Part shown: positions 6,933 through 32,742 of the stretch, piece by piece
How positions within the stretch are numbered: the first letter of the stretch is position 1
Layout: the number at the start of each line of letters is the position of its first letter
Assembly (NCBI GenBank): GCA_025210615.1
Contig: JAOARJ010000014.1
Coordinates: 1 to 32,964, forward strand
Direction of reading: 5' to 3'
DNA length: 32,964 nt
From: Candidatus Altimarinota bacterium
GTDB taxonomy: Bacteria; Patescibacteriota; Gracilibacteria; BD1-5; UBA6164
Notes under the pieces: model-generated
What the model saw: only the letters and a program-made list of their open reading frames with translations
Databases searched by the model: none
What the model was told of the DNA's origin: nothing
Translations under genes and position numbers: made by a program

Positions 6933-7130
6933 ATGAAAAAATTAATACTAACTTTATCAATATTACTAGCTTGAATATATTTAGTTAATTTTATTAGTGC
7001 CATTAGTGTTACTAAAGACTCATGAGAAGTTTTAGATAATTTGACTTGGTCAGAAATATCTATTTTAACTGATAAAATAGATGTTAGTTCTAGTGATATA
7101 AAATTAAACTGAAAATTATATGTAACTTGA
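6933..7130 (+). repeat. Shared 66-residue N-terminal module, copy 1
   Basis: Codes for signal peptide plus the stretch with SGEVLDNLTW and SDIKLNGKLYVTG. Compared by eye, about 50 of 66 residues agree with the copy at 32545-32742. Confidence 0.85.
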
Positions 7131-7809
7131 GAATTATGTAGCGTGATTTGATGAGTAAAAAAAATGTCTGGTTTGACCAAAATGAACAGTGGATAATCCT
7201 TGGCTTTCTTGCAAGGATATTAAAGAACATAATTGAGATTCTTGAAATAAAAATTATACTATAGATCCTGATTGACCTTGATGAAATGCACCTTTTTCAG
7301 TTTATTGCGATATGAGCACTGATTGATGAGGTTGGACCTTAGCTTTAAATATAACACAAGATATTCAAGAATCAGATTTATATAATACCGAAATTTGAAC
7401 TCCATCACTATCTTCAAATTATATGGTATGAATAAAAAAATTAGTACTTGACAATAATACTAAAATAAAATTTTCTTGTCAAAAATATGATTCAAGTTGG
7501 TATTCTTTTTATCATAGAAATATATCAGATTTTTCAAGCTACTTGATTGTTTCTTGAGTATATTGAGGTACAATTGAATGTGCTGAAGATTTAAATTTTT
7601 CATCTAATATATGAACAACTTCTAATAATTGTTTATATGATTGAGGTACATCAGAACATAGATATTATGGATTACCTTCAATACCGTGACTCGCAGTTGG
7701 TTGGTGAAATTATCCTGTTTGTGCTTCACCAAGATTGTTAAGACACTGTGCTGGAGAATGGCATTGAAATTGAACTCCTTGACATGATGCAAGAATTTGG
7801 ATAAAATAA
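6933..7809 (+). pseudogene. Secreted fibrinogen-like domain protein, frameshifted in a poly-A run
   Basis: About 291 residues if one A is removed from the A8 run at 7157-7164. It starts MKKLILTLSILLAGIYL, a signal peptide, then a module ending KLNGKLYVTG that is shared almost intact with the gene at 31405-32742. After the shift the frame gives a fibrinogen-related pattern: SCKDIKEHNGDSG, then PFSVYCDMSTDGGGWTL at about residues 122-136, and later paired cysteines and a NCLYDGGTSEHRYYG stretch. Fibrinogen-like domains in other proteins bind sugars or other ligands, so an extracellular adhesin is the best inference. In the uncorrected frame the protein stops after about 85 residues, right behind the shared module. 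The upstream frame has no Shine-Dalgarno. Terminator follows directly. Confidence 0.8.
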
Positions 7810-7834
7810 AACTCTAGAAATTAATCTAGAGTTT
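7809..7834. terminator. Bidirectional hairpin terminator
   Basis: Ten-bp stem AAACTCTAGA/TCTAGAGTTT with loop AATTAA and a T-run (plus strand). It overlaps the TAA of the fibrinogen-like gene and lies 6 nt from the stop of the converging gene at 7841. Confidence 0.85.
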
Positions 7835-7840
7835 TTATTT

Positions 7841-26197: not shown

Positions 26198-26698
26198 TTA
26201 ATCTTTTATACAATAAACATTATTTCTATCATAATTCCAACGTCCTGCTGAATATTCTTTTGGTCATCATCTTTTTGTATATCCTGATGGACAGACACAA
26301 GAATCACCAGTAGTAGTCATATTTCACCAAACACCTGTACAATAATGTTCATCTAATGAATTAACTTCCCACATTCAACCTCATCAAATTACTCAAGAAG
26401 GCACACCTCCTGAAACACCTGCTACTTTAGTATCTACATATGTTGTATCTGCTTTAGATGTTTTTAAAGCTTCAAGTTCAGCCCTTAAAGCTGTTACTTC
26501 CGTTCATAAATTATTCCAGGTTGTAGCATCTAGTACATCCCCTGTATTTTTTGAATAATTATTTGTTGCCGCATAAATCACTCAAGCAGCTAAAAAAATC
26601 ACCAAAAACGATTTTAATAAATTTTTTCCAAAAAAAACTGATTTTGCCTTTAATTTAATTCTGCTATCTTGTTTAAAATTCTTTTTTTGTTTTGTCAT
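26198..26698 (-). CDS. Secreted coiled-coil, cysteine-rich small protein
   Basis: Encodes 166 residues, family unknown. A basic N-terminus of about 25 residues precedes one hydrophobic segment (NLLKSFLVIFLAAGVIYAA), so it is a signal anchor or a signal peptide with a long n-region; bacterial pilin-like start is another option. Then comes NTGDVLDATTWNNL, resembling the SGEVLDNxTW motif of the two modular secreted proteins, then a short coiled coil (EVTALRAELEALKTSKADTT). The C-terminal half is glycine-rich with five cysteines (HYCTGVW, DSCVCPSGY, YCIKD), probably disulfide-linked outside the cell. Six glycines in this half are UGA. Its own promoter lies upstream. Possibly a surface fibre or adhesin part. 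Confidence 0.85.
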
Positions 26699-29446: not shown

Positions 29447-30574
29447 TTATTTTCAGAAATATTTATTCTTTAATTCAGATAAAAAGCTAGCTAATGCTTT
29501 TTGTAGTTCCTCTTTCTTCTTATTTTGTTTTTCTTTAATTTCACTTCTTTCTAGCTTTTGTCTATCTGCTAATTGCTCTTTTTCTAATTGTTGTTTTTCA
29601 TTTAATTCTATAACATCATCTTGATATTCCTGAGTAATCTCGGCTAAATCTTCTTTATACTTCTCATAAGCACGCTTTCTTTCGACATAATATTCTTGTC
29701 TTTTTTCTTTTTCTGTTTTTTGTGAAAAATCGCTATTATTATTATTTACACATTTTTTAGCACTAGATATACTTAAATTTCTATTAAAAACTGATGAAAT
29801 ATATCATTTTTCTTCAGTATAATTATAATAATTACAAATTAAATTATTTTTCGTAGCATAATCCACTGATAATACTTTTTTATCAGCTTCTATAACTTTA
29901 TTTAAAAAATTCTCTCTATATTCTATTTCTGTATTATTTTGTTTTTTATTTCCGTTTGTTAATAAATCTTCAACTCAAACTCAATCAATAGTATCAAGAT
30001 ATTCAGGATAATCTACCAAATCTAAAGCATTTTGTCAAAATACTAAGAATTTTGTTTTATCTTTAATCTTTTTTACAAAATCTATCATCTCAAAAGCAGC
30101 TGTTTCTCTACCTTTTTCTTCATAGTAATAATAAGCATCTATGATATCAAGATAGACTCAATCATATCAAGTTTCTTTTATTTTTTCAGCTTTATTTATT
30201 ATAATATCCTGCCAATCTGAATTCCAATATTTAACTTTATAATTCCCTGGCCAATCTCTATTTTCTTTATCTAAAAATTCTGGATTTCATACTTTCCATC
30301 ATTTTTGCCAATAATCTCTATAATCTTCAGCTTCTCAAATACTTAAATAAGATAAAACTATATTTCAATTATTTTTTAAACTCTCAATTTGCTGTTTAGT
30401 AAGCTCACTATCATCAATATCAATAACAATATAACTATTTTTTAATTGTTTTAGTTTAGAATAATTAGTTTTTTGTAATTGATAGTGAAAATTATTTTGC
30501 GAAGCCATTACAGATGGCACAATTAACACACTAAAAAATAATGCTACTAAGCTGTTTTTTATTATGTTTCTCAT
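29447..30574 (-). CDS. Secreted GH114-like (TM1410-type) protein with coiled-coil tail
   Basis: Encodes 375 residues. MRNIIKNSLVALFFSVLIVP then SVMA is a signal peptide. The following TIM-barrel-like domain has features of the GH114/TM1410 family (alpha-1,4-polygalactosaminidase type): NIVLSYLSIGEAEDYRDYWQ, DWPGNYKVKYW and GYDGVYLDIIDAYYYY, where the Asp in YLDIID is the candidate catalytic or nucleophile-site residue. The substrate is not certain; related enzymes act on galactosaminogalactan-type polymers. The last 95 residues form a long charged coiled coil (EKQQLEKEQLADRQKLERSE), an unusual addition that may anchor or oligomerise it. Three cysteines lie near the junction. Several glycines are UGA. 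Confidence 0.85.
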
Positions 30575-30698: not shown

Positions 30699-31304
30699 TT
30701 ATAATTTCTTCAGTTCAGCATAACTAAACAAAGCACTAAACGGCTTACACCATACCATCACATATTTATATTTATCAAAATCTATATTAGAATCAACCGT
30801 ATAATTTATATTCCCCTTCGTTCATTTTATTTTTCATAAATCTATAAAATCTTTAGCTTTCAAATCCGCTCATAAATAAATAAACAAATCTGGTCAATTT
30901 ATAGTATCAAAATTTTCAAACCTAATAACAGCATCTTCTCAAGATAAAATAAGTTTTGCTTCTCATTTTACTTCATGTTCAGCCGCTATAAAATCTCATT
31001 TATGAGAAGTAATTATCTCTGGAACTTTTTCTTCTTTTTTTTCAATCTCTTCTACAACTTTATTTTCTTCCTCAATATTCTCTTTATCGGTATTGTCTTC
31101 ACTAATATTATTATTCTCTATTTTATCTACTACGTCTTCTAATATTTCAGGCGAATTATTATCAACTATATTTTCATTATTATTAGTACTAAAAGGCAAT
31201 TTATCATCTCTTTCTATCACAATAAAAATAGGGGAGATAAGGTACCACGCAATAGGCAAAATAATAATTATACCTATAATTATCAAAATCTTTTTTGTAT
31301 TCAT
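30699..31304 (-). CDS. Membrane-anchored DM13-domain protein
   Basis: Encodes 201 residues. Residues 5-30 are a hydrophobic anchor (KILIIIGIIIILPIAWYLIS). A Glu/Asn/Asp-rich linker follows to about residue 100. The C-terminal domain matches DM13: a KGEAKLILSGEDAVIRFENF strand pair, then DTINGPDLFIYLSADLKA, DLGKIKGTKGNINYTVDSNI and VMVWCKPFSALFSYAEL, with the single conserved Cys in the VWCK segment that in DM13 proteins has been proposed to take part in redox reactions. The first glycine of GDFIAAEHEV is UGA, separating the linker from the domain; without recoding the domain would be lost. Likely faces outside. Confidence 0.88.
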
Positions 31305-31382
31305 AATATTATAGTTATAAAAGTAAAATAACTTTAATATACAATTATAAAGATTTTTTTTATAAATTCAAGAAAATAAAAA

Positions 31383-31403
31383 AATCACTATATAAAAGCG
31401 ATT
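31383..31403 (-). terminator. Terminator of the large secreted modular protein gene
   Basis: Seven-bp stem (AATCACT with AGCGATT, including one G-T pair on the minus strand) and six or more T. It lies next to the stop codon at 31405. Confidence 0.65.
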
Positions 31404-31404
31404 T

Positions 31405-32742
31405 TTAAGGACGAACAACGAATCTTGCTGACTCATAACTAGCACGAGAACCTGTATAATCGTAATATTGGTCTAAACAATCATTATGACGTACGACACG
31501 AGCACCACGTCCCCAATCAAGACCACTGGTACGACCAATTGCTGAAAGCCATATCCGCTCACCATCATGTTGGTCAGAGCTTTGGTCCGTTGCAGCATAA
31601 TAAAAGTCATTATTAGTAGCACTATTATCATTTTGATATAATTCACATGCTTTTTGATATTCTCATTTAGCATTATCATCACTTATATTATCACAATCTC
31701 ATCCTCCGCTGCAAGGTCAAGCATTATCTGCATTTATATAACTAAAAGCTGATGGAAGATGGGAACCACTCTTTTGTGTCCAAGCAGTTAAATATTTTTG
31801 TCTATTTTGATAAATTATACAATCTAAATCCGCTGTATCTGTCGATGTCACATTACATCAAGGATATGTTCCAGATTGGTCTAATGTGGTTTTGTCTGTA
31901 TTATATTCAGCATAAGTTACTTCATCAGTAGAATTATCATTATGAATATATGTCATATCAGTTCATAAATCTCTTTTTCAATCTATACAGTCAGCTATAT
32001 AAAGAGCTGGAATAGCATGTTTGTTTCCACTAGCTCCAACTCAACCAACTAGTGGAATACCTGTTGAAGAATTTACTATCCAGTCTATACTTTGAGCCTC
32101 TGTATAATTATTCTTTATTGTAGCAAGCCATTTCATTCTATTATAAATAGTATCTCATTGACCATCCGCTGTATCATAATCATCATTTGCTGTTCATAAA
32201 GTTTTACAAGTATACAATGTATTTTCATCTATTACATGTTGTAAATCTTTTGTTTGTCAATATTGTAAAGTAGGATTTCATCAGTCTGTTACATTTGTAG
32301 CATCCCATCATTCATAATAACCTACATTATTAAGGCCTCCCCATCAATTCCATGATATTCAATCTGTTCAATCATTTGTATCACCAAAATCTCAAAATCT
32401 AGGCGAAATACAAAATCAAGTTTTAGTTTTATTTCAGATTTTTACATCATGATTTTTATCTACCCAAATCCATCAAGCTAATTCACATAAATCTTTATCA
32501 ATTAATTTTTTTCCTAAACAATTTCAATCGCCATCACAAATATCTCAAGTCACATATAATTTTCAATTTAATTTTATATCACTTCAAGAAACATCTATTT
32601 TATTTGTTAGTCAAGAAATATTTGTCCAAGTTATATTATCTAAAACTTCTCAAGAATTTTTAGTAACAGTAATAGCACCAATAAAATTAGCTAAATATAT
32701 TCAGCTTAAAATTAAACTTAAAAATAATATAAATTTCTTCAT
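31405..32742 (-). CDS. Large secreted protein with shared N-terminal module
   Basis: Encodes 445 residues. It begins MKKFILFLSLILSGIYLANF, a signal peptide, then a module through KLNGKLYVTG that equals the module of the fibrinogen-like protein at 6933 in about 50 of 66 positions. The C-terminal part is unrelated to the fibrinogen pattern: Trp- and Gly-rich with many cysteines (CDGDGNCLG, PCSGGGDCDN), a WLATIKNNYTEAQSIDWIVN stretch, and a closing block with WLSAIGRTSGLDWGRGARVV and ESARFVVRP. The closing block resembles the ends of DUF1566/FISUMP-type surface domains, with low certainty. The last 75 codons use CGT for arginine repeatedly, whereas AGA is the rule elsewhere here. Probably a surface adhesin. 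Confidence 0.85.
32545..32742 (-). repeat. Shared 66-residue N-terminal module, copy 2
   Basis: Codes for signal peptide plus the stretch with SGEVLDNITW and SDIKLNGKLYVTG. The other copy is at 6933-7130 on the plus strand, inside a different gene. The match ends sharply after KLYVTG, where the two proteins diverge. Confidence 0.85.

Follow-up and report, generated by a model that had tools for sequence, protein, structure and literature searches.

About forty adhesin-like proteins sharing one N-terminal carrier in a Gracilibacterium

Introduction

How ultrasmall Patescibacteria recognise the cells they live on is largely unknown. The question raised here comes from a 32,964-nt stretch (the window; contig JAOARJ010000014.1, positions 1 to 32,964, of assembly GCA_025210615.1, Candidatus Altimarinota bacterium), in which two secreted proteins begin almost alike and then diverge completely: is this a chance pair, a simple duplication, or part of a larger system in which one front end presents different domains? 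An initial annotation, made from the sequence alone, proposed that the shared N-terminal module may be a surface-sorting, fibre or docking domain displaying interchangeable ligand-binding domains, and that a third protein, at 26198, carries a related motif. The observation is confirmed, with two corrections, and proves larger than reported. The interpretation is only partly supported: its modular part holds, while sorting, anchoring, docking or fibre formation by the module remains inference. The context that proved decisive, that relatives carry the same kinds of head on type IV pilins, was not foreseen.

The two window genes

The window uses genetic code 25 (TGA=Gly), since only with it are the long frames open. 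Under this code the N-terminus encoded at 6933 (plus strand) and that of the protein at 31405-32742 (minus strand) agree in 51 of 66 residues, and the sequences then diverge. In the first gene the signal peptide occupies 6933..7001 (MKKLILTLSILLAGIYLVNFISA) and the mature module 7002..7163 (ISVTKDSGEVLDN...KLYVTGELCSVIGGVK). The span 6933-7809, which had been given as one protein, is not one open frame: the module frame stops at 7196 and the rest (7189-7809) is read one base later. The shift lies at an A8 run, 7157..7164, where sister copies with the same GTA-AAA-AAA-TGT site have A7, so that this copy is either frameshifted by one base or mis-assembled. The remainder, 7165..7809, is a fibrinogen-like head now in the +1 frame (CKDIKEHNGDSG...YCDMSTDGGGWTLA), with matches above cut-off to PF00147 (E=9.8e-8) and PF01410 (E=6.3e-7).

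The second gene, on the minus strand, is intact. Its signal peptide lies at 32674..32742 (MKKFILFLSLILSGIYLANFIGA), its mature module at 32512..32673 (ITVTKNSGEVLDN...YVTGDICDGDGNCLG), and its 368-aa head, which we call VRP after its last residues, at 31408..32511.

Copy number and anatomy of the module

The similarity is far beyond chance. The 268-bp module DNA has 40 matches in the same genome, most at 78-89% identity, and a profile of 28 copies finds 42 places: 39 genes, one degraded copy (C5:13916, contig and position in this assembly, with a stop inside) and two 27-residue fragments at contig ends. The 39 genes lie on 10 contigs and fill 39 kb, 3.1% of the 1.25-Mb assembly; several lie exactly at contig ends, so the true number may be slightly higher. 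The initial annotation would have been refuted by few further copies or by a single kind of C-terminal domain, and neither was found.

There are two alternative 5′ cassettes, MKK-type signal peptides (34 genes) and a KLRW-type with its own conserved 160-bp leader (five genes, plus two leaders at contig ends). All intact copies start with a Sec-type signal peptide. An alanine, A23, is invariant in 30 of 30 MKK-type copies aligned and lines up with the alanine of the unrelated KLRW-type signal peptide, just before the mature part, as would be expected of a signal peptidase I site. The mature module follows, KNSGEVLDNxTW..I..LTNKIDVSSSDIKLNGKLYVTG, with a near-invariant Trp39, and then a linker in one of two forms, CDxSGxCLG or CSxxGGxKKCLG, each with two cysteines. 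After the signal peptide the shared module reads SGEVLDNxTWTNISSLTNKIDVSSSDIKLNGKLYVTGKxC. DNA similarity between the two cassettes starts at about codon 27 and ends at the linker. Searches of the module against PHROGs, PDB and Pfam returned nothing, and an AlphaFold model of the intact window protein, made with two homologues, had a mean pLDDT of 30 and was unusable.

We considered whether the copies might be phase- or antigenic-variation cassettes, with one expressed gene and silent donors or with homopolymer switching. In favour is the frameshift of the window copy at a poly-A run that is near 7-8 A in many long-linker copies. However, nearly all copies have their own start codon and many a promoter-like sequence, so there is no single expression site, and only one copy is out of frame at this run. 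Of the two other broken copies, C9:87441 has a frameshift inside its fibrinogen-like head (at 1903-2541 of L021; L numbers denote extracted stretches of DNA) and C5:13916 (in L026) is a degraded VRP copy without signal peptide. An assembly error at the run cannot be excluded either. We regard this reading as very unlikely.

The heads

Pfam searches and direct inspection give 24 intact fibrinogen-like heads plus that of the frameshifted window copy, four VRP heads, one RCC1 propeller, two 'PGQ' heads and seven Cys-rich or unknown heads. Most of the 25 fibrinogen-like heads, which share a YCDMxxxGGGWT subdomain, exceed a curated cut-off, while a few fall just below. A representative scores 70.9 bits on NCBIfam GGGWT_bact (NF040941; cut-off 30), and the best PDB relatives of one head are XEEL, tenascins, intelectins and, lower, tachylectin-5A and a ficolin. 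Only the first ~50 positions of the domain are recognisable, the rest of each head being divergent. The VRP head, of 293-368 aa, has no match in Pfam, NCBIfam or PDB. Two signal peptide types, two linker types and at least five head classes occur in mixed combinations.

A second, order-wide N-terminal family

The protein at 26198 does carry NTGDVLDATTWNNL after its hydrophobic segment, as had been noted, but it is not a clear member of the module family. A loose alignment led us to a second N-terminal family, found across the order, with a signal peptide, Ala-Trp-x-Gly and then G-D-x-L-x4-W-N-x-[LM]-[VI]; in the 26198 protein the signal peptide and this module occupy 26459..26620 (minus strand). 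A profile built only from relatives' proteins finds the 26198 protein (E=5.7e-9) and does not find the 39 module copies. The family (sampled in L139-L162) is apparently not in Pfam and carries many C-terminal domains, including Gp10_C (E=3.9e-19), C1q (above cut-off) and collar-like domains, different in most cases from the heads described above.

It is possible that the 39-copy module is a diverged member of this family and seeds a trimeric fibre, with a helix start and a beta stalk as in tail-fibre-like and C1q-like proteins. Both have the same position after the signal peptide and share G-[DE]-x-L-x4-W, and profile-profile comparison with hhalign links them at 68% probability (P=4.7e-5), though over only 21 columns. 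Gp10_C and C1q are domains known as trimers, the WN modules of relatives show hydrophobic residues at W+3, +4, +7 and +10/11, and intelectins and ficolins are oligomeric. On the other side, bit scores for the mature part are only marginally above those of shuffled decoys, the module lacks the Ala-Trp-x-Gly start, and no oligomer could be modelled. A distant kinship is suggested but not established, and we consider the fibre reading doubtful.

Distribution of module and heads

The module was found in none of the 76 other genomes searched from the order. Among 286 further genomes drawn across the phylum there was no credible match; the one hit (in genome G306, E=2e-5) is not in a secreted protein frame and was rejected as chance. 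Pattern scans of GTDB contigs and IMG/VR also found none. Since these genomes included no second species of the genus, 'private' here means at species or genus level, and the module is not the general Absconditabacteria/Gracilibacteria module whose existence the initial annotation had suggested examining.

The heads, in contrast, do occur in relatives. Fibrinogen-like domains are common, in 38 of 60 genomes, in 1-10 copies each, against 22 matches in the window's genome. Of 67 distinct untruncated fibrinogen-like ORFs in the stretches examined, 59 begin as type IV pilins, four more look like pilins with altered N-termini, and only four are Sec-type. VRP heads were found in five relatives, and all six full-length proteins begin as type IV pilins; the two from GTDB contigs are named Candidatus Gracilibacteria. 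One second-domain head here is 54% identical over about 200 aa to a pilin-borne head in a relative's stretch, L127. The window's genome keeps one pilin-borne fibrinogen-like head and has 14 pilin-type N-terminus hits, within the family's range, all in genes other than the module copies. The same heads therefore ride on two different carriers, and in this lineage nearly all have the private one.

Modular type IV pilins are the closest known arrangement (PilB/PilC of Streptococcus sanguinis, PMC8179133; PilX2 of Nanosynbacter lyticus, PMC12206443). There too a constant N-terminal carrier presents exchangeable adhesive heads, and the relatives' fibrinogen-like and VRP heads are exactly of this kind; PilX2, with a beta-propeller head, is needed for host binding in another Patescibacterium. 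The window proteins likewise graft non-pilin effector heads on a shared carrier, but they have no prepilin (class III) signal or FTLVEL helix, having instead an ordinary Sec signal and a private module of ~50 residues.

The module might still place the heads on pili as an N-terminal docking segment for the pilus tip, by analogy with TcpF and CofJ (PMC9565799), which are Sec-exported soluble proteins bound to the trimeric minor pilin through a short mature N-terminal segment with a key aromatic residue. The pilin-borne heads of relatives, the pilin hits, a pilus-type ATPase-like gene in the genome and Trp39 would fit. However, no partner minor pilin was identified, the TcpF/CofJ segments are 11-15 residues against about 50 here, and there is one such protein per pilus system against about 40 here. 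We consider this reading possible but unlikely.

Older heads, younger carrier

At residues identical between two copies, module codons match in 75% of cases (58% expected from usage), while head codons of the same gene pairs match in 69% (62% expected). The modules thus share more recent DNA ancestry than the heads attached to them, by spread of the module or by gene conversion, although module codon conservation could partly reflect nucleotide-level constraint near the start. Recent duplication as the sole cause of the DNA identity was weighed; module codons are clearly above random but not near-identical. On a tree of the mature modules, head type changes 11 times (shuffled mean 13.2), and the four VRP genes need four changes, meaning no clustering. 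As the tree rests on 117 columns and few of its branches are well supported, it supports reassortment without proving each event.

Ordinary paralogous expansion, in which whole genes were duplicated and heads diverged faster than a constrained N-terminus, was considered as the alternative. Some close pairs share both module and head type (C2:34756/C9:4848; C9:92925/C9:87441), all copies keep the order signal peptide-module-head, and purifying selection on the module with relaxed heads would give the same picture. Against it stand the unrelated head folds (fibrinogen-like, VRP, RCC1, PGQ) on one module, the combination of both signal peptides and both linkers with several heads, the codon comparison and the homologous heads on pilins elsewhere. 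We judge it unlikely.

A retroelement target among the VRP heads

In one relative, genome G018, the last 46 codons of a VRP pilin have a near-copy 3 kb away on the same contig, C25 (L135:2221-2370 and L137:1507-1656). All 12 mismatches inside the coding part lie at adenines of the copy; the only other mismatch follows the stop. A reverse transcriptase gene stands between them, with its best PDB match to 8ub7, the Bordetella phage DGR enzyme. This is a diversity-generating retroelement (DGR) whose target is a pilin-borne VRP head.

Compared with the G018 template, the last 46 codons of the window's VRP head (31408..31545, minus strand) differ at 11 of 12 AAY codons but only 8 of 34 others (p=5e-5), and three alignable VRP copies of this genome together show 31/36 against 32/102 (p=1e-8), although high variability at exposed binding positions without a retroelement could give a similar pattern. 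A search for RVT_1 found no match in the window's genome, against matches in 24 of 60 genomes, and no isolated template copy was found; as the assembly is 96% complete, absence is likely but not certain. Four intact fixed VRP copies are present instead. A survey of DGR targets in Patescibacteria had found no recognisable domain on most targets of one clade (PMC8144416), and a pilin carrier read in code 25 may explain part of that.

A model for the repertoire

We favour, as more likely than not, a lineage-specific repertoire of about 40 secreted display proteins in this tiny, parasite-like bacterium, a probable kit for recognising other cells. In this view each protein is exported by Sec and cleaved by signal peptidase I after residue 23. 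The mature protein would start with a short, strongly constrained carrier, an amphipathic segment W..I..L...I and then a beta-hairpin-like stretch with two conserved cysteines, followed by an exchangeable head. What the analysis shows is that heads which relatives present on type IV pilins ride here on a private carrier; the spread of carrier DNA over older heads, or its homogenisation across them, is supported by the codon and tree tests; the signal peptidase cleavage, the binding of glycans or proteins on prey or host cells by the heads, and the oligomerisation of the carrier or its docking on the cell surface or pilus, so that one presentation site can show many specificities, are inferred. 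Recognition is inferred from family resemblance and because relatives put the heads on pili, which are known to mediate host binding in other Patescibacteria (PMC12206443). Nothing shows surface retention or oligomerisation. We hold a secreted recognition repertoire on a shared carrier with moderate confidence, and the action of the carrier as an oligomeric stalk or docking segment only tentatively.

A more speculative reading, which we consider unlikely though not excluded, is a carrier swap with loss of programmed mutation: this lineage would have moved the recognition heads of its type IV pili, including a head that relatives diversify with a retroelement, onto a private secreted docking module, replacing on-the-fly mutagenesis by a fixed repertoire of about 40 reassorting paralogues.

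A carrier with grafted heads is known in principle, and no Gracilibacteria paper that we read describes this family; what is new is the scale, the species-private carrier, the swap from pilin carriers and the retroelement connection. The analysis points to one pool of probable ligand-binding heads in Gracilibacteria, fibrinogen/intelectin-like and VRP, shared between two carriers, type IV pilins in most species and a private secreted module here. The heads are small and secreted and lend themselves to glycan arrays.

Leaders, terminators and neighbouring genes

The 160-bp leader upstream of the KLRW-type copies (L039:3320-3479, minus strand, and L016, L037, L035 and L026) contains a promoter-like sequence, a 15-16 codon upstream ORF (MSVNKESQERLVTRKA in most copies, MRDNESQKRLVAKEA in L039) and two direct repeats AGTCACAAGAAAGGC that change together in one copy. 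The signal peptide frame has no ATG, and in two copies no TTG, near the expected start, leaving the start codon uncertain. An Rfam search of this leader returned nothing.

Many copies have their own promoter-like sequence and terminator. The frameshifted window gene is followed at 7810..7838 by a terminator-like inverted repeat (AACTCTAGAAATTAATCTAGAGTTTTTAT), and this CTAG-type palindrome (AACTCTAG...CTAGAGTTTT) follows 9 of 39 copies, the window copy included, within 150 bases. The two window genes stand among housekeeping genes such as infB, serS and pheS, and next to the intact one lie a glycoside hydrolase family 114 protein and a DM13-domain protein (29447-30574 and 30699-31445, minus strand).
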